64,000 nt of DNA from an uncultured Alphaproteobacteria bacterium. Lineage in GTDB: Bacteria > Pseudomonadota > Alphaproteobacteria > Caulobacterales > Parvularculaceae. This document shows positions 5,454 to 56,923 of this stretch, one piece after another (within the stretch, counting starts at the first letter, position 1; every line of letters starts with the position of its first letter). A model generated the notes under the pieces. It was not told where the DNA came from, did not search any database, and saw nothing but the letters and a program-made list of their open reading frames with translations. The position numbers were made by a program, and so were the translations under genes. The DNA lies in assembly GCA_902826095.1 (NCBI GenBank), contig CADEDN010000005.1:62001-126000 (forward strand), read 5' to 3'.

Positions 5454-6010
5454 CCGACGCGCCGATCCATCATCTGCGGCCGGGCCCGCGCGATCTTCGC
5501 CTCGCTGAAATGCTGCGCGTCGACCATGCGGGGGAATATGGCGCGGTCACGATCTATCGCGGCCAGCGCGCGGTCTTCGGCGCCGCCCTGCGCAAGCGCG
5601 ATGTCGCCGCGACGATCCGCGCGATGGAGGCGGGGGAGGCCGAGCACCTCAAGACCTTCGACCGCCTCCTCGCCGAGCGCGGGGTTCGGCCGACTTTGCT
5701 GTCGCCGCTGTGGTCCGTCGCCGGCTTCGGCCTTGGCGCCGTCACCGCCTTGATGGGCGAGAAGGCGGCGATGGCCGCGACCGCCGCCGTCGAGGACGTC
5801 ATCGAAAAGCATTATGCCGCCCAGGCCGAGGAGCTCGACGCGACCGAACCCGGGCTTGCCGCGCAATTGCGCGGCTTTCGCGACGACGAGCTCGCGCACA
5901 AATCGACGGCGCAAGCGCATGGCGCCGAGGATGCGCCGGGCTTTCCGCTGTTGAAGGCGGTCATCCAGGCCGGCTGCCGCGCGGCGATCCGCCTTTCGGA
6001 GAAGATCTGA
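5450..6010 (+). CDS. coq7: Coq7-type demethoxyubiquinone hydroxylase
   Basis: This 186-residue protein matches the Coq7/CAT5 di-iron hydroxylases that convert demethoxyubiquinone to the hydroxylated intermediate of ubiquinone synthesis. The ligand pattern is visible: RVDHAGEYGA (first Glu), EAEHLKTF (ExxH, near residue 63), a central VEDVIEKHY and a closing RDDELAHK (ExxH). The start is GTG 5450, overlapping the dsbB stop as GTGA, so the two are translationally coupled. Length is normal for bacterial Coq7. Confidence 0.93.
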   Translation: MTDAPIHHLRPGPRDLRLAEMLRVDHAGEYGAVTIYRGQRAVFGAALRKRDVAATIRAMEAGEAEHLKTFDRLLAERGVRPTLLSPLWSVAGFGLGAVTALMGEKAAMAATAAVEDVIEKHYAAQAEELDATEPGLAAQLRGFRDDELAHKSTAQAHGAEDAPGFPLLKAVIQAGCRAAIRLSEKI

Positions 6011-8456: not shown

Positions 8457-9614
8457 ATGGCCGACGGCGCCGCCTTGTCCGATATCATCGTCGAACCGGT
8501 CTTGGGTCCCGCCGGGCGCAAGGCCTTCATCGCGGCGGGGAAGGCTCCCTATGCGGACGATCCCAATTACGTCGCGCCGCTCGAATTCGAGGTCGCCGCA
8601 CGGCTCGACCCGAAGGCGAACCCGGCGCTTTCCGGCGCCGAGGTTCAGCTCTTCATCGCGAAAAAGAACGGCGCCGTCGCCGGCCGCGTCTCCGCCTTCA
8701 TCAACCCGCTGCATCTTCAAACCTACAATGACGCGACCGGGCATTTCGGCTTTCTCGACGCGATCGACGACGCCGAGGTTTTCGCGGCGCTGCTCAAGAC
8801 GGCGGAAGACTGGATGCGCGCGAGGGGCATGAAGAAGATCGCCGGGCCGTTCTCGTTTTCGGTCAATGAAGAATGCGGGCTCTTGATCGACGGCTTTGAT
8901 GCGCCGCCCTATGTGATGATGCCGCACGGCCGCCCCTTCTATCGGCGCCATGTCGAGGCGGCGGGCTATTCAAAAGCGATGGACATGTACGCGCTGCGCT
9001 ATATTCCGCGCCGGCAGTTCATCCCCGAAAAGCGCATGAAGTTCATCGAACGCGCGCTCTCCTCGCCAAGGGTCAAGATCCGCAATATCGACTTCGCCCG
9101 CTTCAATGCGGAAATCGCGACCCTCGTCGACATCTACAAGGACGCGTGGAGCGACAATTGGGGCTTTGTCCCGATGACCGAAGCGCAGATCGCCCATATG
9201 GCGCGCGAGCTTCGCCCGATCATCGAAAAATACAACATCATTTTCTGCGAGCTTGACGGCGAACCCGTCGCCTTCGGCCTCGTCCTGCCGAACGTCATGG
9301 AGCTGATCCGCGATTTCGACGGCAAATTACTGCCGTTCAACTGGGCGAAATTGCTGTGGCGGCTGAAGGTCAAAAAACCGAGCCAGGCGCGCATGCCGCT
9401 GATGGGCGTCAGGAAGAAACTCCACGGCAAACCGATCGGCGCCGCTTTCGCCTACAAGATCATCGAGATGGTGAACTCGGCGAACATGGACAACGGGATC
9501 ACGTCCTCCGAACTGTCGTGGATTTTGGAAATCAACAAGGACATGCTGACCATGCTGACCGACATCGGCGCGGAGATTTACAAGACGTACCGGATTTACG
9601 AGCGGGGGCTCTGA
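8457..9614 (+). CDS. GNAT-like conserved protein, 385 aa
   Basis: The protein resembles a conserved alphaproteobacterial family of about 380 residues annotated as GNAT-type acyltransferases. It has a two-lobed look, with IAKKNGAVAGRVSAFINP in the N-terminal half and FCELDGEPVAFGLVLPN in the C-terminal half, both typical GNAT beta4-beta5 stretches. No substrate can be named. Start ATG 8457. The 3' end matters: the last 20 codons (ending KTYRIYERGL) are repeated in degraded form at 10329-10390, on the far side of a toxin-antitoxin module. Confidence 0.72.
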   Translation: MADGAALSDIIVEPVLGPAGRKAFIAAGKAPYADDPNYVAPLEFEVAARLDPKANPALSGAEVQLFIAKKNGAVAGRVSAFINPLHLQTYNDATGHFGFLDAIDDAEVFAALLKTAEDWMRARGMKKIAGPFSFSVNEECGLLIDGFDAPPYVMMPHGRPFYRRHVEAAGYSKAMDMYALRYIPRRQFIPEKRMKFIERALSSPRVKIRNIDFARFNAEIATLVDIYKDAWSDNWGFVPMTEAQIAHMARELRPIIEKYNIIFCELDGEPVAFGLVLPNVMELIRDFDGKLLPFNWAKLLWRLKVKKPSQARMPLMGVRKKLHGKPIGAAFAYKIIEMVNSANMDNGITSSELSWILEINKDMLTMLTDIGAEIYKTYRIYERGL

Positions 9615-9980
9615 GCTCGCCCGCCAATCGGAAAGCTTGCGCTGTCTCATCCGCCGCTCCTCGATGATTGTGATTGCGCCTTCGAATCTCATACGGCCGT
9701 CGGCGAGAGCCGCGATGAGCCGGGCGGCGCGCTGCGCGGGCCTCATCTCCGGCAAAAAGAGGATGATCGCGCCGATGGACGCCACTTTATCCCGGATCAA
9801 CAATTCGCCGAAATCGAAGTCTTCAGTGATGACGACCCGTTTCTCGGCGAGCGCGATTGACAAAAGCGCTCGGTCATCAGCGCTGTGATCGCTCTCCGCC
9901 GCATAGCGAACGTCATGGCCGGCGGCGCGAAGCCCGACGACGATCGCTCGCGGACAGCACTCATCGACGAGAAAGCGCAT
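9327..9980 (-). CDS. DUF5615 PIN-like toxin, C-terminus read through into the neighbour
   Basis: The first ~115 residues match the DUF5615/Mut7-C-like PIN family (VapC45 type): MRFLVDECCP with the first acidic residues, then a LRAAGHDV segment, then ITEDFDFGELLIRD. Such proteins are RNase toxins of DUF433/DUF5615 pairs. It begins with ATG 9980 directly after the TAA of its DUF433 partner. The family is normally about 110-125 residues. Here no stop follows the domain, and the frame runs a further ~100 residues antisense to the end of the GNAT-like gene, so the native end has apparently been lost at the cassette junction near 9617. Whether the 217-residue form is active is unknown. Confidence 0.7.
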   Translation of the reverse strand: MRFLVDECCPRAIVVGLRAAGHDVRYAAESDHSADDRALLSIALAEKRVVITEDFDFGELLIRDKVASIGAIILFLPEMRPAQRAARLIAALADGRMRFEGAITIIEERRMRQRKLSDWRASSEPPLVNPVRLVNLRADVGQHGQHVLVDFQNPRQFGGRDPVVHVRRVHHLDDLVGESGADRFAVEFLPDAHQRHARLARFFDLQPPQQFRPVERQ

Positions 9981-10205
9981 TTATTCGGCGGCGGTCGTGA
10001 TTTCGTCAGCGAGATAATCCGCCGCAAAAACGAGCGCCGCCAGCACGTCGTCAACCTTCAGCCGCGGATACTGGTCCGCGACCTCCGCAGGAGCGAGCCC
10101 ACGCGCGCACTCGCGAACGATCTGCTCGACGGTGACGCGCGTTCCGGCGATGACGGGCTTGCCGCCCATCACCTTTGCGTCGATCGAAATGCGCTGGTGG
10201 GCCAT
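9981..10205 (-). CDS. DUF433 antitoxin
   Basis: The 74-residue protein has the typical DUF433 pattern: RISIDAKVMGGKPVIAGTRV, then IVRECARGLAPAEVADQYPRL and LAALVFAADYLAD, a winged-helix-like DNA-binding fold. DUF433 genes are partners of DUF5615 toxins and probably repress their own operon. I chose ATG 10205; TTG codons at 10211 and 10208 are possible but weaker. Its TAA is immediately followed by the toxin ATG. Confidence 0.85.
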   Translation of the reverse strand: MAHQRISIDAKVMGGKPVIAGTRVTVEQIVRECARGLAPAEVADQYPRLKVDDVLAALVFAADYLADEITTAAE

Positions 10206-10328
10206 CAACAAATCATAGCACGCCGCCGATCGGCGTTCAAAGCCGGCAAAACCCGCGCATCATCGGGATTAACCGTCAACGCCGCCGCGCCCGTCGGCGC
10301 CGAGGCGGCCGCGATCGCCAAGGGCATG

Positions 10329-10390
10329 CTGACCGATATGGCGGGGAGATTCACAAGACCTATCGGATTTATGAGCGGGGGTTGTGAGCT
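10329..10390 (+). repeat. Degraded second copy of the GNAT-like gene's 3' end
   Basis: This aligns with 9555-9617, the end of the GNAT-like gene, with about eight mismatches and one single-base gap by my hand alignment. In its frame it still reads GEIHKTYRIYERGL and stop (TGA 10385-10387), against GAEIYKTYRIYERGL in the intact gene. Most differences are third-position changes. The match may extend a little upstream (CATGCTGACC). It lies in the same direction as the gene and beyond the DUF433/DUF5615 module. Confidence 0.85.
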
Positions 10391-13127: not shown

Positions 13128-13175
13128 CCGATCCGTAGCGGCAGTCTTATGTCGGCGCTCGCCGAGCTTTCGCGA

Positions 13176-13320
13176 TCACCGCAAAGGCGGCTCATCAAAA
13201 CTGCGCAATTTCCTTGAATGCAAGGTCCCGGCGTCCGCTTCCGCGCGCAACCGCTCGATCGCCCGCAGGCCGATCGCCAGACGCTGCGCGACGCGCGCCT
13301 GACAGAAAGTCTCGGCCCTT
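13176..13320 (-). repeat. Second copy of the amn 3' end (about 48 codons)
   Basis: This aligns without gaps with 13916-14060, the 3' end of amn, with 21 mismatches over the 140 bases I compared (13181-13320). It keeps the amn reading frame and a TGA at the same place. The translation ends LRSFDEPPLR against LRSFDEPFLR in amn, and further up QARVAQRLAIGLRAI against QARVAQHLAIGLRAI. Similarity fades near 13310. The region looks like an allele of the amn tail from a relative rather than a fresh duplicate. Confidence 0.9.
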
Positions 13321-13612
13321 ATTCGCTCCCCTGAAGGCTCTCGATTGCTGAGAAGCAGGCTCTGCGTAGCTCCGCCAGCTTTTCATCGACGACGCCCGCG
13401 ATGATCGCCCCATCGAGGTCGATCTTGTGCCTACGGATCGCCGCTTCGCTGATAATGAGAAGCCGGCGCTCGATGGCGCTCCGCGATTGAGTATTGGCGC
13501 GCAACGCCTTTGCCGACCCGCCCGCCTCCTTCACCCAGGCGTCAACCAGGTCGATGGCGCGGGCAATATCGTCAAACGCCGCAATCAGCCGTTCAGAAGA
13601 CATGCGCGGCAT
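13319..13612 (-). CDS. HepT-like (DUF86) protein, probably inactive
   Basis: The protein resembles HepT/DUF86 toxins of MNT/HEPN pairs: helix FDDIARAIDLVDAWVKEAGG, the block RSAIERRLLIISEAAI and the C-terminal KLAELRRACFSAIES. HepT toxins need an RN-x4-H motif, usually found after the EAA helix. Here the chain passes straight from EAAI to RRHKIDLDGAI, as if about 20 residues holding that motif were deleted. Start chosen ATG 13612 (ATG 13603 or TTG 13621 are possible). Its end abuts the second amn tail. The partner MNT gene is frameshifted, consistent with joint decay. Confidence 0.65.
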   Translation of the reverse strand: MPRMSSERLIAAFDDIARAIDLVDAWVKEAGGSAKALRANTQSRSAIERRLLIISEAAIRRHKIDLDGAIIAGVVDEKLAELRRACFSAIESLQGSE

Positions 13613-13890
13613 CTCGTTCAATGGACTGACGAAGCGCGGGCTTCTTCACCGGCGCGAGGACGATGTCGATGGCAAGGCCCGGAAAGGCTTCTTCAAGAAT
13701 CGTCTGCAGCGCGCCGTGGTCGAACAGGCTGAGGGCGACGTCCGCGGCCGGCGTCAGCAAAACGTCAATGTCGCTCGCCTTCGTCGCGCCCGCGCGCGAC
13801 CGAGCCGAACAGCGCCGCATGCGCGACGCCGCGCGCTTCCAGCTGCGGCCGGAGGCGGCTGAGAATCGCAGTTGCTGCTTGACGGTCCAT
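13593..13890 (-). pseudogene. MNT-type nucleotidyltransferase antitoxin, frameshifted
   Basis: From ATG 13890 the minus strand reads MDRQAATAILSRLRP ... ALFGSVARGRDE, containing the nucleotidyltransferase GS motif, then hits a stop at 13765-13767. A second frame continues KASDIDVLLTP (the DxD metal pair), GLAIDIVLAPVKKPALRQSI and stops at 13593. Joined, they give a normal ~98-residue MinD/Mnt-like antitoxin; a single-base frameshift lies between about 13768 and 13800. MNT antitoxins AMPylate and silence HepT. The ATG is 25 bases after the amn stop. A sequencing error cannot be excluded. Confidence 0.8.
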
Positions 13891-13915
13891 GCTTCTTTTT
13901 AGCGCGCCTTGGCTG

Positions 13916-15394
13916 TCAACGCAAAAACGGCTCATCAAAACTGCGCAATTTCCGCGAATGCAAGGTCCCCGCTTCCGCCTCCGCGCGGAGGAGCTCGATC
14001 GCCCGCAATCCGATCGCCAGATGCTGCGCGACGCGCGCCTGGTAGAAGGCGTCGGCCATGCCGGGGAGTTTGATCTCTCCGTGGAGCGGGCGGTCGGAGA
14101 CGCAAAGGAGCGTGCCGTAGGGGACGCGATAGCGAAAACCGTTCGCGGCGATGGTCGCTGATTCCATGTCGATCGCGATCGCGCGGCTCTGATTGAGGCG
14201 GACTGCGATCTTTTCGAAATCGAGCTCCCAATTGCGGTCGCCGGTGGTGACGACCGTGCCGGTCCGGAGCTGCTCTTTGAGCTGACCTTTCGGGATGCCG
14301 CCGACCTGTTCGACGGCGGCCGTCATCGCGAGCTGCACCTCGGCGATCGTCGGCAGGGGGATCGAGGGCGGGAGCGCGTCGTCGAGGACATTGTCTTCGC
14401 GGAGATAAGCGTGCGCGAGGACATAGTCGCCGAGGCGCTGCGTCCTTCGCAATCCGCCGCAATGGCCGATCATCAGCCAGACATGCGGGCGCAGGACGGC
14501 GAGGTGATCGGTGATCGTCTTGGCGTTCGACGGCCCGACGCCGATATTGACCAGCGTCACGCCCTCGTGTTTGCCCATTTGATAATGATAGGCGGGCATT
14601 TGCGGCTGTTTGGCGAGCGGCGGCCGGCTCGGCTCGGCGCCTTTTCGGGTGATGCGGTCGCCGGGTTCGATCAGGGCCTCGATCTCGCCCGTCTCGACTT
14701 TTTGCCGGCCAAGCTCGACGAACTCGTCGACATAGCGCTGATAGTTCGTGAACAGAATGAAGTTCTGATAATGCTCGGGCTTCGTCGCCGTATAGTGCTG
14801 GATGCGGTGCAGCGAATAATCGGTGCGCTCCGCCGTGAACAGCGACAGGGGAAGCGCGCCGCCGCGCTCCAAAATCATGCCGCCGTCGACGATGATGTCG
14901 TTCGTCGCGATAAGGTTCGGCATGTGGAAATAATGCTGCAGCTCTTCGCGCTGCTGCGGCGTGAGGTTGGCCGTCGCCTGTTCGAGCGCGAAGGTCAGCG
15001 GAATGGGCGTCCGCGATCTGCCGACGAAAAGTTTCGCCTCAAAGCTCTCGCAGACGCGCGTCAGCTGATCGAGGAGGTAGTTTGAAAACAGCCGCGGCGC
15101 GGTGATCGAGGCGCCGTGCAGGCTCGTCGCCGCGATGCGCCCGAGCGCGAGGCTCCCTGTCTGGATCGAGCGTTCGGCGGGGACTTCCGCGCAAAGATAA
15201 GGATAGGTCGGCGCGTCGACGGCGCCGATCTTCAGCTTGCCCGCCGCATAATCAAGAAACCGCTTTTCGACCGCGCCGACCGCCTCATCGTAAAGCGCCG
15301 TCAGCCGTTCGACCGCCGCCTGCGGCGTCGCGCAGAATTTGAGGTCGTCGGCGGGCGCGCCGGTCGGCGGGGATTTTGGCGGTTTTGGGCTCAT
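13916..15394 (-). CDS. amn: AMP nucleosidase
   Basis: The 492-residue protein matches AMP nucleosidase (AMP to adenine plus ribose 5-phosphate). It has the N-terminal AMN domain (KFCATPQAAVERLTALYDEA, then the YPYLCAEVP region) and a C-terminal nucleoside-phosphorylase domain with LVNIGVGPSNAKTITDHL, WLMIGHCGGLR, AIDMESATIAANGFRYRVPY and LLCVSDRPLHGEIKLPGMA. Length is that of the E. coli enzyme. The final ~48 codons are copied at 13176-13320 behind a decayed MNT/HepT module. Confidence 0.95.
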   Translation of the reverse strand: MSPKPPKSPPTGAPADDLKFCATPQAAVERLTALYDEAVGAVEKRFLDYAAGKLKIGAVDAPTYPYLCAEVPAERSIQTGSLALGRIAATSLHGASITAPRLFSNYLLDQLTRVCESFEAKLFVGRSRTPIPLTFALEQATANLTPQQREELQHYFHMPNLIATNDIIVDGGMILERGGALPLSLFTAERTDYSLHRIQHYTATKPEHYQNFILFTNYQRYVDEFVELGRQKVETGEIEALIEPGDRITRKGAEPSRPPLAKQPQMPAYHYQMGKHEGVTLVNIGVGPSNAKTITDHLAVLRPHVWLMIGHCGGLRRTQRLGDYVLAHAYLREDNVLDDALPPSIPLPTIAEVQLAMTAAVEQVGGIPKGQLKEQLRTGTVVTTGDRNWELDFEKIAVRLNQSRAIAIDMESATIAANGFRYRVPYGTLLCVSDRPLHGEIKLPGMADAFYQARVAQHLAIGLRAIELLRAEAEAGTLHSRKLRSFDEPFLR

Positions 15395-18046: not shown

Positions 18047-18089
18047 TTACGCCGCATCCTCGCCAGCCAGAATGTCGCGCTTGCCGGCG
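18047..18089 (-). repeat. Second copy of the ftsK 3' end
   Basis: These 43 bases match 19288-19330, the last codons of ftsK, at 41 positions. Both differences are silent (an Ala and an Asp codon), so this copy still reads [13 protein letters not shown] and TAA. It lies in the same direction as ftsK, beyond the OPRT-like module, 7 bases from the stop of the module's second gene. Confidence 0.92.
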
Positions 18090-18096
18090 TCGGCGT

Positions 18097-18465
18097 TCAA
18101 CGGTTTTTATTCGACAGGTTTGCGCGAAGCTCAACCCACGTTCCAATGATTTTCCCGCAGCGGATTGCAATCTGGGCGGGCGAATGCGGGCGCTGAATCG
18201 CCTTCATTAGCTGCTCGACCTCACGAAACAAGCCGTCAAATTCTTCCCATGCGTCTGGGGTCGGCGGTCCCTCAGTGTCGATATTGGCGGCGATGTTCGT
18301 CGCGACGGCGTATGTCACGACCAGAGCGGTTCGAGCCGCATCCGTCGTCACGAACTCGGTCGCCGCGAAGCAACTGCGCGCAATTTTGTAAATCATCGAC
18401 GAATTAGGCGGGCAACCCGCTTCGACAAGCGATTTCGCCGCGGCGGCGCAGTCGTTCAAAGTCAC
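18097..18465 (-). CDS. Unknown helical protein coupled to the OPRT-like gene, 122 aa
   Basis: The start is GTG 18465, overlapping the stop of the upstream OPRT-like gene as GTGA, so translation is coupled. The protein is soluble and mostly helical by inspection (CAAAAKSLVEAG, YAVATNIAANI, FDGLFREVEQLMKAI, CGKIIGTWVELRANLSN) with three Cys. I recognise no family. It sits inside a cassette bounded by two copies of the ftsK tail, in the place where the other two cassettes carry toxin-antitoxin genes. A regulatory or effector partner of the phosphoribosyltransferase is possible but unproven. Confidence 0.7.
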   Translation of the reverse strand: MTLNDCAAAAKSLVEAGCPPNSSMIYKIARSCFAATEFVTTDAARTALVVTYAVATNIAANIDTEGPPTPDAWEEFDGLFREVEQLMKAIQRPHSPAQIAIRCGKIIGTWVELRANLSNKNR

Positions 18466-19133
18466 TTGACCGTCCGGAAATCCTCCGCAGTCAGCAGCGA
18501 TTTTAGCGTGACGCCGTGCTGCGCGAGATTCTCAACGGCGCCTTCAAGGCGGTCGACGACCGTTAAGGCCGTATCAATGATAACGCCATAACAGCGCGCC
18601 TCTTCAATGGCTTTTAGAACCGATCCGCCCGTCGTTGTGACGTCATCGACCATAATCGCGGTTTTTCCGCGCAACGCCTCAATCTGTTCGCCTTCCAACA
18701 GTTTCATTGTTCCGTGCTCTTTGGCCTTCTTGCGAATCCAAAATAGCGGAATCGGCTTGCCCCGCTCATAGCTCCGCAACGCGACGGCGTTCAAAACCGG
18801 CACCGCGCCCATTTCAAGCCCGCCGACATAGTCGCAATTCTCGCCATATATTTGGTCGAGCATCAACTCGGCGATCAGAAAGAGGCCTTCCGGTTGAGAA
18901 AGCGTCATCTTCATATCGAAGTAAAAATTGCTCGTTTGTCCGGAAGCGAGTTTGGATTCTCCTTCGCTAAAAGAGCGCGAACGGATAATTTCCTTCAATC
19001 TGTCGGACCGCCCATCGGTCGAATCCGGCCGCGCCTTCGCACGCATCGCTGTCGCCGCCATTTCAACGTCCCTATCAATTGATCTCAGCAACTCTCGGGT
19101 GCGCCTCAGCGCGTCCCCGACCCTTCCTCGCAC
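18462..19133 (-). CDS. Orotate phosphoribosyltransferase-like protein
   Basis: The core matches OPRT: KLASGQTSNFYFDMK (the LxSGxxSxxYxD motif), YVGGLEMGAVPVLNAVAL, the mobile loop WIRKKAKEHGTMKLLEG and the PRPP site IMVDDVTTTGGSVLKAI. OPRT makes orotidine monophosphate from orotate and PRPP. I placed the start at GTG 19133 because GGGAGG lies 6 bases before it; ATG 19061 (199 aa) is an alternative and would remove a 24-residue basic extension. It is coupled to an unknown gene and carried in an ftsK-tail cassette, so it may serve a module function other than housekeeping pyrimidine synthesis. A resident pyrE is not in this window. Confidence 0.82.
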   Translation of the reverse strand: MRGRVGDALRRTRELLRSIDRDVEMAATAMRAKARPDSTDGRSDRLKEIIRSRSFSEGESKLASGQTSNFYFDMKMTLSQPEGLFLIAELMLDQIYGENCDYVGGLEMGAVPVLNAVALRSYERGKPIPLFWIRKKAKEHGTMKLLEGEQIEALRGKTAIMVDDVTTTGGSVLKAIEEARCYGVIIDTALTVVDRLEGAVENLAQHGVTLKSLLTAEDFRTVK

Positions 19134-19158
19134 CGCCCGCCTCCCGACGAATGAGGCT

Positions 19159-19188
19159 AACTAACTGATTTGACTATGATTCGTCAAA
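19159..19188 (-). promoter_or_regulatory. Promoter with overlapping inverted repeat, OPRT-like module
   Basis: On the minus strand TTGACG (19187-19182), 17 bases, TTAGTT (19164-19159). The inverted arms TTTGAC (19169-19174) and GTCAAA (19183-19188) cover the -35 box. It would give a leader of about 20 bases before GTG 19133. The arrangement suggests the module has its own regulated promoter. Confidence 0.4.
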
Positions 19189-19287
19189 GAATTTGAAGGC
19201 GCGCCGATGCGGCGATCCTCTGAAGAAATAGTCAGCCGATGTCAAGGCGCTAGCCCGACGCCGATTGAATTCGCGACGAACCCCTGA

Positions 19288-21711
19288 TTACGCCGCGTCC
19301 TCGCCGGCCAGAATGTCGCGCTTGCCGGCGTGGTTGGGCTGGCCGACGACGCCTTCCTGCTCCATCCGCTCGATCAAGGTCGCGGCGCGGTTATAGCCGA
19401 TCTGAAGGCGGCGCTGGATATAGGAGGTCGAGGCCTTGCGGTCGCGCAGGACGATCGCCACCGCCTTGTCATAGAGCGCGTCGCCCGACGATGTGTTGCC
19501 GCCGATGTCGAGGCCGTCAAAGGCGCCGTCTTCGTCCTCGTCCCGAAGCTCGGTGACTTCCTGAACATAGGAAGGCGAGCCCTGGCTCTTCAGGAAATCG
19601 ACGACCTTTTGCACTTCCTCGTCGGAGACGAACGCGCCGTGGACGCGGCGAATGCGCCCGCCGCCCGCCATGTGCAGCATGTCGCCCATGCCGAGAAGTT
19701 GCTCCGCGCCTTGTTCGCCGAGGATCGTCCGGCTGTCGATTTTCGAGGTGACCTGGAACGAAACGCGGGTCGGGAAATTCGCCTTGATGGTGCCGGTGAT
19801 GACGTCGACCGACGGGCGCTGCGTCGCCATGATGAGATGGATGCCGGCCGCGCGCGCCATCTGGGCGAGGCGCTGCACCATCCCCTCGATGTCCTTCCCG
19901 GCGACCATCATCAAGTCGGCGACCTCGTCGATGACGACGACGATGAACGGCATCGGATCGTATTTGAGCTCCTCCGTCTCGTAGATCGGCTCGCCCGAAT
20001 CCTCGTCATAGCCGGTGTGAACGCGGCGCGTCAGCGTCTCGCCCGCTTCTTTCGCTTCGGCGAGGCGCTGGTTGAAGCCTTCGATATTGCGGACGCCGAG
20101 CTTCGACATCCGGCGATAGCGCTCCTCCATTTCGCGCACGGTCCATTTGAGCGCGACGACCGCCTTTTTCGGATCGGTGACGACCGGCGCCAGAAGATGC
20201 GGAATTCCTTCGTAGACGGAGAGTTCGAGCATCTTCGGGTCGATCATGATCAGCTTGGCGTCGTCCGGCGAGAGCCGATAGAGCAGCGACAAGATCATCG
20301 TGTTGATGCCGACGGATTTGCCCGAGCCCGTGGTGCCGGCGATCAGGAGATGCGGCATGCGCGCGAGATCGGCGTAGACCGGCTCGCCGCCGATCGACTT
20401 GCCGAGCGCGAGGGTCAGATCGCCGCGGCTGTTCTCGAATTCCTCGGCGCCGAGAAGCTCGCGGATATAGACCGTTTCGCGGTCGATATTGGGGAGTTCG
20501 ATGCCGATGACGTTCCTGCCCGGCACCACGGCGACGCGCGCGGCGACCGCGCTCATCGAGCGCGCGATGTCGTCCGAAAGCCCGATGACGCGCGAGGATT
20601 TGACGCCGGCCGCCGGCTCCAATTCGTACAGCGTGACGACGGGACCAGGGCGGACATTGATGATCTCGCCCTTGACGCCGAAATCCGCGAGGACGTTTTC
20701 AAGCATGCGCGCATTCTGTTCGAGCGCCTCGTCGGAGACGACTTTCGTTGCTTTCTGGACGGGTTTGGCGAGCAGGCTCAAGGCCGGCAACTCATAGGAG
20801 CCGGGCTTGAAGACGGGAAGTTCGGGCTGCGCCTCGCGCGCTTCGCGCTTGCCTTGCTTTTTCTTTTCGTCCTTGCGGATGATGTTGCGCTTTCGCGACG
20901 GCGCGACGAGCGGCGGCTCGCCGTCTTCGTCCTCTTCGTCGCCGTCTTCGGAATGATCCTCGGCGTCGTAGTCTTCTTCCCGGTCGACGAGATCGCCGGG
21001 CCTGTCGGCGGCGTCCTGGCGCGAGATCGCGTCAAACCGCGCCGCCGCGAAATCGCGGATCGCCGCGCCCTGCGCTTCAAGTTCGATGATCGCCGCCTCG
21101 ATGCGCCGCAAGGTGAGGCCGCAGGCGTAGAGATACGCGGCGATCCCGGCGGTGAACAAAAGCGCGCCGGCGAAAACGCCCGGCGCCTGCAGCTTCGCCA
21201 GTGAAAACACAAAGACGCCGAAATGCGCGACAGCGTCGCCGATCATGCCGCCGAGATTCGCCGCGAAGGGCCAGCCGGCGGGCGTCGGCGCCAGCGACAG
21301 CGCGCCGGCGAGGATGACGAAAGACGCCGGCCCCAGAATGAAGCGAATGACGACGTCGCGCGGCGTCCGCTCCTTCGGCAGATCGTCGGCCCCGCGCATC
21401 ACCGCATGCGCGCCCCAGATGACGAGCGGGGGGACCGCGAGCAGGCAAGCGGCGCCGAAAATCTGCAGCAGCAGATCGGCGGTCAGGGCGCCGAGCCCGC
21501 CCATCAGGTTTGAGGCGGCGCGCGGGGTTGCGTTGTTAAGGCTTGGATCGCTGATCGAAAACGACATCAGCGCGAGCGTCAGCCACAGGCCGAGCGCGAT
21601 CATCGCCGCGCCGCCCGAGCGGGCGATCGCCTGCCGGCGCCAGCGGTCAAGCCGTTCAAGCATCGTCAGGCGGTGACGCGAGGATTTTGCGCGCGAGGAG
21701 CGAGAGATCAT
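19288..21711 (-). CDS. ftsK: DNA translocase FtsK
   Basis: The 807-residue protein has about four N-terminal membrane helices (within residues 30-200), a charged linker rich in Asp/Glu and Lys (about 230-310), the motor domain with Walker [13 protein letters not shown] (about 457-468) and Walker [13 protein letters not shown] (about 590), and a C-terminal gamma domain ([20 protein letters not shown]) that reads KOPS-type sequences. FtsK couples septation to chromosome dimer resolution at the divisome. ATG 21711 and ATG 21663 are both possible. The extreme C-terminus ends [12 protein letters not shown], and its coding sequence is repeated at 18047-18089. Confidence 0.96.
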
Positions 21712-36587: not shown

Positions 36588-36727
36588 CGGGCGCGAAACC
36601 GGTTTCCACTTTCACGCCCGGCGCGCTGCAACACGTAGTGTTGCGGCGCGGACCCGGGATGACACGGTTTTCTCTCTTGAAGAGGTCCCGGAAACCGGAA
36701 CATCATGAGTCTTCTTCAACGCAACTT
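36588..36727. repeat. Composite intergenic repeat: AACCGGTTTCC unit plus GGGATGAC unit
   Basis: The left part (36588-36621) has GCGCGAAACCGGTTTCCACT as in the elements near 55.2 and 56.9 kb. The right part has a 7-bp hairpin (GCAACAC 36628-36634 with GTGTTGC 36638-36644), then CCCGGGATGACACGG, CTTGAAGAGGTCCCGGAAAC and TCATGAGTCTT. The right part recurs at 59886-60085. The element lies between the lipoprotein gene and the convergent folC. Confidence 0.8.
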
Positions 36728-54905: not shown

Positions 54906-55235
54906 ATGAAGACCTTCGCCAAACGCTTCTTAACCGCCGCCGCCCTCGCTTCAGCGACGCTCGCTGGCGCGCCCGCTTTCGCCGGCGACGTCGACTTCGC
55001 CTATTCGGCGTCGGAAATGCGCAATTCCGCGGCGATTTCGGACCTTTATGAGCGCATCGAGGAGAAAGCCTGGCGCGCCTGCGCCGTTTACGAGAATTCC
55101 GGCCTTTTGGGGATCGCCTATCAGCGCGCCTGCGCCGCCGACCTCATGGCCGACTTTGTCGACGGGATCGACAATGCGAAACTGACGGCGCTTCACGAAG
55201 AGCGCCATGGCGCGCGTCTGGCCGAAAGCTTTTAG
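54906..55235 (+). CDS. UrcA-family secreted protein
   Basis: ATG 54906 follows GAGGAGAGAAAC. The 109-residue protein has a signal peptide (MKTFAKRFLTAAALASATLA, then GAPAFAG) and two pairs of Cys (WRACAVYEN and QRACAADLM). The arrangement VDFAYSASEMRNSAAISDLY then ERIEEKAWRAC is that of UrcA proteins, small exported proteins known from Caulobacter relatives, function unknown. An intergenic repeat begins at the base after its stop. Confidence 0.8.
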   Translation: MKTFAKRFLTAAALASATLAGAPAFAGDVDFAYSASEMRNSAAISDLYERIEEKAWRACAVYENSGLLGIAYQRACAADLMADFVDGIDNAKLTALHEERHGARLAESF

Positions 55236-55293
55236 CGCGCCGGGCGCGAAAGTGGGAACCGGTTTCGCGCGCAAAGGCGCGCCAAATCAAAAG
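55236..55293 (-). repeat. AACCGGTTTCC-type repeat, left copy (contains the ligase stop codon)
   Basis: This is a near-identical inverted copy of 56862-56923; one base differs in the core (GGGAACC against GGAAACC on the same strand). It overlaps the end of the O-antigen-ligase-type gene; the TGA stop (55287-55289) lies within the repeat. The two copies thus bracket that gene in inverted orientation. Confidence 0.85.
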
Positions 55294-56861: not shown

Positions 56862-56923
56862 GCTTTTGATTTGGCGCGCCTTTGCGCGCGAAACCGGTTT
56901 CCACTTTCGCGCCCGGCGCGCTA
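56862..56923 (+). repeat. AACCGGTTTCC-type repeat, right copy
   Basis: Inverted partner of 55236-55293. Hairpin arms GCGCGAAA/TTTCGCGC are visible around the core. It is located between the O-antigen-ligase-type gene and the next plus-strand gene. Confidence 0.85.

Follow-up and report, generated by a model that had tools for sequence, protein, structure and literature searches.

The OPRT-partner operon

The window, the 64,000-nucleotide stretch of DNA analysed here, has on its minus strand an operon of two genes, in which a gene for orotate phosphoribosyltransferase (OPRT) is followed by one for a small partner protein. The OPRT gene (18462..19061, 199 aa from an ATG at 19061) encodes an enzyme of the TIGR00336 type with intact catalytic residues, and the partner gene (18097..18465, also on the minus strand) encodes 122 aa predicted to form a five-helix bundle. 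The stop codon of the first overlaps the GTG start of the second in the sequence GTGA. A sequence-only reading had proposed a candidate two-gene module joined by this overlap, and both open reading frames lie where it placed them. The stretch it gave runs to 19133; the OPRT frame (18462-19133) is indeed open on this strand up to a GTG at 19133 (223 aa), but that codon is probably not the start, as the alignment of relatives begins at ATG 19061. Since the proteins at the related loci L027, L026, L016 and L044 begin near the same point, the ATG is probably the true start. By GC3 the pair is compositionally foreign, with values of 0.65 and 0.67 against 0.77-0.87 in its neighbours and the housekeeping pyrE.

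Against TIGR00336 the window OPRT scores 127.3 bits, over the curated cut-off of 106.8. The PRPP motif IMVDDVTTTGGS and the SGQTSNFYFD motif are intact, as had been read from the letters, and RKKAKEHG is kept as well. Columns conserved in OPRTs that have no partner are likewise retained in the paired ones; the exceptions are few and minor and belong to the window and L027 proteins. On these conserved catalytic residues, the enzyme looks catalytically competent.

Upstream of the OPRT gene lies a conserved block resembling a promoter or operator, TTTGACGAATCATAGTCAAATCAGTTAGTTAGCC (19155..19188, minus strand). At L027 a block about as far upstream of the OPRT gene is identical to it at 29 of 34 positions, where the best of 40 shuffles reached 21, and this identity exceeds that of the coding DNA of the same two loci (64%). 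The block contains the direct repeat CRAATCA-N4-CRAATCA with an 11-bp period, occurs once in the source genome (G000), and 199 further genomes of the order do not have it. This suggests a promoter-operator travelling with the module, and a block so private to it hints at possible self-regulation. The promoter with an inverted repeat over its -35 box that had been proposed here stands in part: the repeat TTTGAC-N8-GTCAAA is real, although its right arm is not preserved in L027, and the promoter itself was not reported by a strict sigma-70 scan. That scan, which also covered terminators, found nothing convincing at the module; Rfam gave no match to an RNA leader, and the leader folds no better than shuffled sequences.

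The partner has no significant match in Pfam, NCBIfam, PADLOC or PHROGs. Its AlphaFold model is a five-helix bundle (pLDDT 83.9, pTM 0.78), and the order of the five helices is shared by the model of the L049 partner, which is not a fully independent prediction because its alignment included the window protein. A Foldseek search with the fold returned nothing at E <= 0.001. The top second-look match was CheA P1 (HPt), with two models at Z 10.8 and 9.9, values too low to be trusted for helical bundles; together with the MLKL and NRG1 bundles it was judged to reflect a common helical arrangement. Helix 2 of the partner contains no histidine, and the one histidine common to the window and L027 partners is in a loop; an HPt function was rejected because the phosphorylatable histidine is missing. 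The HEPN/HepT-like family is matched by the L049 partner alone, at E 0.12, below the cut-off.

Recurrence of the pair and the second pyrE

The sequence-only reading had looked to three things in support of a module, namely recurrence of the pairing, patchy distribution and a second, housekeeping pyrE, and all three are found. A scan with the OPRT alignment yielded 80 related loci. Among them L027, from a genome of the same family and another genus (G679), has a 119-aa partner homologue directly downstream of its OPRT; the two partners are 30% identical (phmmer, four sequences compared, E 5e-18) and the two OPRTs 64%. A profile of just these two partners, run against the 5864 ORFs of these loci, had among its top three hits the ORF that immediately follows the OPRT gene at L049 (E 0.37). 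With L049 added, the profile retrieved a single further ORF, the one immediately after the OPRT gene at L044 (E 8e-5); compared with each other, the partners at L049 and L044 give E 7e-6. Both loci come from further alphaproteobacterial genomes, probably MAGs. In a Mesorhizobium plasmid (L016, 5013-5931) the OPRT gene is overlapped by a downstream ORF of 125 aa that is not in the record's gene table; it agrees with the partner in size, place and overlap and has no significant sequence match, so that L016 is a pair by position only. The examples are thus few: one clear homologue pair, two weaker ones and one positional. The start codon is ATG in L027 and L049; L044 offers no more than a CTG that overlaps the stop of its OPRT gene, which is a weakness of that case. 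A small overlapping operon with conserved pairing, as expected of a type II toxin-antitoxin (TA) module, is present in four genomes and, by position, in L016.

The distribution of the OPRT is patchy. At E <= 1e-30 it occurs in 2 of 62 genomes of the family (G000 and G679), both times with the partner. OPRTs of this clade occur alone in many genomes, and no partner without an OPRT was found in about 385 genomes of the class, 398 of the order and 299 of the phylum, which are overlapping samples; weak single-sequence matches in the class search (E ~0.006-0.009) were dismissed, most of them containing stops. Beside one of the unpaired OPRTs, at L087, a HigB-like toxin gene (5590-5874) lies directly downstream. 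Neither the partner nor a close relative of the OPRT was found in viral contigs, and the partner was likewise absent from the phages and plasmids searched, on which ground a phage or plasmid origin of the module was rejected. The paired OPRTs form no single clade in the tree and fall in two separate groups, each of which also holds unpaired members; there were therefore either several gains or repeated losses of the partner.

One account of the locus is a plain imported pyrE with an unrelated passenger gene behind it. It draws on two of the nearest OPRTs, L026 and L028, which have no partner. It is quite improbable, as OPRTs from separate subclades and in separate genomic settings have the partner behind them, each time in that position and orientation, and both family genomes with an OPRT of this type carry it. 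Simple import of a pyrE, which had been offered as the plain alternative, does not by itself explain the gene that travels with it.

The source genome also has a separate PyrE of another type (TIGR01367, 225 bits, at G000:C20), whose gene sits between rsh, a RelA/SpoT-type gene, and pdxJ. Because of this copy the window gene is neither the sole nor the housekeeping pyrE; it does not occupy the place of a core gene and lies inside an inserted cassette. The contrast extends beyond this genome. A TIGR01367 PyrE over the cut-off is present in all four paired genomes supported by the profile (G000, G679, G1049 with L044 and G1050 with L049), whereas it is present in none of the 38 tested genomes in which the clade OPRT has no partner. 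Six of the weaker extra matches in the unpaired genomes were read, and all six proved by sequence to be adenine phosphoribosyltransferase (APRT); these 38 genomes seem to have one OPRT each. From this split it follows that the partnered OPRT is an extra enzyme and the unpartnered one the ordinary pyrE of its genome. The chance of such a 4-of-42 split would be about 1 in 112,000 if the genomes were independent, which they are not, and mis-binned contigs could inflate the correlation, since MAGs probably make up three of the four paired genomes and contamination in G679 is 6%.

The same split could be read as an OPRT replacement under way, in which one pyrE type is giving way to the other in the paired genomes and the second copy is transient. 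The TIGR00336-type gene does appear to be the sole OPRT of the partner-less genomes. A replacement is nevertheless highly improbable, because it leaves both the conserved partner and the conserved upstream block unexplained, and because the second gene has reached so few genomes of the family.

Cassettes at gene 3' ends

The operon is carried by a 1.24-kb cassette that is inserted at the 3' end of ftsK and has a copy of the ftsK terminus on each side. The inserted segment (18091..19287) separates ftsK from a GNAT-like gene. At one edge is the 44-nt ftsK 3' end fused to the ftsK gene (19288..19331), and at the other a second copy (18047..18090) followed by the native ftsK-GNAT intergenic sequence. 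The two copies are identical at 42 of 44 positions, and none would be expected by chance. The cassette is missing from a genome of the same genus (G003, L111), where the GNAT-like gene directly follows ftsK at an empty site; the intergenic sequence of G003 is similar to that after the 18047-18090 copy, which marks the cassette as an insertion. Another genome of the genus (G004, L113 347-1400) has a different cassette at the same ftsK 3' end, again with a duplicated ftsK terminus, and its gene is AraC/GyrI-like by a name read from the sequence rather than from a family search.

The position of the pair had been likened to two other cassettes in the window that hold TA genes, and the likeness is borne out: both are flanked by repeated gene ends and enclose TA-like genes. 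On the minus strand at 8457-10390, DUF433 and DUF5615 (PIN-like) genes lie within a repeated gene end (9551-10390), the flank being an 87% copy of the 3' end of a 385-aa gene at 8457-9614. At 13163-14057 the 3' end of an AMP nucleosidase gene is duplicated (155 nt, 84%) around a HepT-like gene, matched at E 0.003, which is below the cut-off, and a nucleotidyltransferase-like (MNT-like) gene that looks split into two frames. Across the 864 kb of the G000 genome that were scanned, five gene-end cassettes suggest a recurrent insertion route.

Two of these five lie outside the window, as gene-end or terminator duplications around small insertions: one is at G000:C1:67044-68947 (in L129), the other at G000:C4:78871-80063 (L149 to L150), where an NYN-domain gene is inserted between dnaN and dnaA. 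Farther along the window, 61-nt inverted repeats at 55233-55293 and 56863-56923 are 98% complementary and separated by 1.57 kb; related copies lie at 36591, and the repeats are possibly a small mobile element.

Interpretation and known systems

That the OPRT and its partner form a mobile accessory module and not an ordinary pyrimidine gene is well supported. As it recurs in a few bacteria that also have a normal OPRT copy, the pair is probably mobile and accessory. For its function, a TA or anti-phage role is plausible and is the leading reading. Stated in full, the pair would be a horizontally moving accessory operon of a TA- or defence-like kind, with the downstream helical protein as effector and the OPRT as its restraint, to which we give a probability of about 0.45. 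In such a module the two proteins would bind each other, the helical protein would be the potentially harmful part, and the upstream OPRT would hold it in check while sensing the status of PRPP, orotate or UMP. The roles are assigned in this order because the OPRT is tolerated alone, whereas the partner was not found alone, is always downstream and diverges faster. The most specific version, in which a full, active OPRT restrains a helical-bundle effector in a new kind of nucleotide-linked TA or anti-phage module that has spread in gene-3'-end cassettes, is unlikely as a whole.

A metabolic enzyme with a regulatory subunit fits the pattern of OPRT and partner nearly as well. Here the second OPRT would be an accessory enzyme with a small regulatory or stabilising subunit, lending extra capacity (e.g., in orotate salvage or under stress), and there would be no toxin. 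The fully conserved catalytic residues, which count against the TA reading, suit an ordinary enzyme too, as does the retention in paired OPRTs of the columns conserved in unpaired ones; the partner depends on the OPRT and not vice versa, and the L016 pair lies inside a nif gene region, outside any defence island. Such an enzyme would hardly be expected to show so patchy and cassette-borne a distribution beside TA-type neighbours, nor a partner that has diverged so much faster than the OPRT, and we regard it as possible with the odds against it. The TA-like reading is favoured over it because of the company kept by the cassettes, which carry DUF5615/DUF433 and HepT/nucleotidyltransferase-like genes, and because Xre/RES TA genes follow the pair at L044. 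The module matches no known toxin, antitoxin or defence family, PADLOC giving just weak, partial matches, and in the literature searched no OPRT was found as a TA or defence component.

Were the TA-like reading true, a core enzyme of pyrimidine synthesis would have been reused as one half of a mobile accessory module, linking nucleotide pools to the logic of TA or phage defence in a form absent from the family libraries and papers searched. The presence of the partner only where another pyrE exists is a simple rule by which more members could be sought in genomes, and the recurring gene-3'-end cassettes offer a possible way for small two-gene modules to spread in this lineage.

As a protein the window OPRT belongs with the bacterial OPRT/PyrE enzymes (TIGR00336; solved relative 5hkf), having the PRPP motif, the flexible-loop RK..K.HG and SG..S.FYF. 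Unlike an ordinary PyrE it is a second copy beside a TIGR01367 PyrE, is borne on a cassette and has its gene overlapping that of a small helical protein in one operon. With the type II TA cassettes (DUF433/DUF5615 and HepT/MNT) the pair has in common a short two-gene operon, the same kind of gene-3'-end cassette and the same genome, but it contains no known toxin or antitoxin family. ShosTA and RqlHI-type systems combine a PRTase-domain protein with a DprA-like antitoxin and show that PRTases are usable in such modules (PMC9122126, PMC4670107). The window pair resembles them as a patchily distributed two-gene module built on a phosphoribosyltransferase-fold protein. It is set apart from the ShosT family, whose model the OPRT matches over 21 residues only (E 0.025), and the partner has no match to DprA and is predicted to be all-helical. 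The PRTase of the window pair is a full OPRT, accompanied by a predicted five-helix bundle rather than a DprA-like protein.
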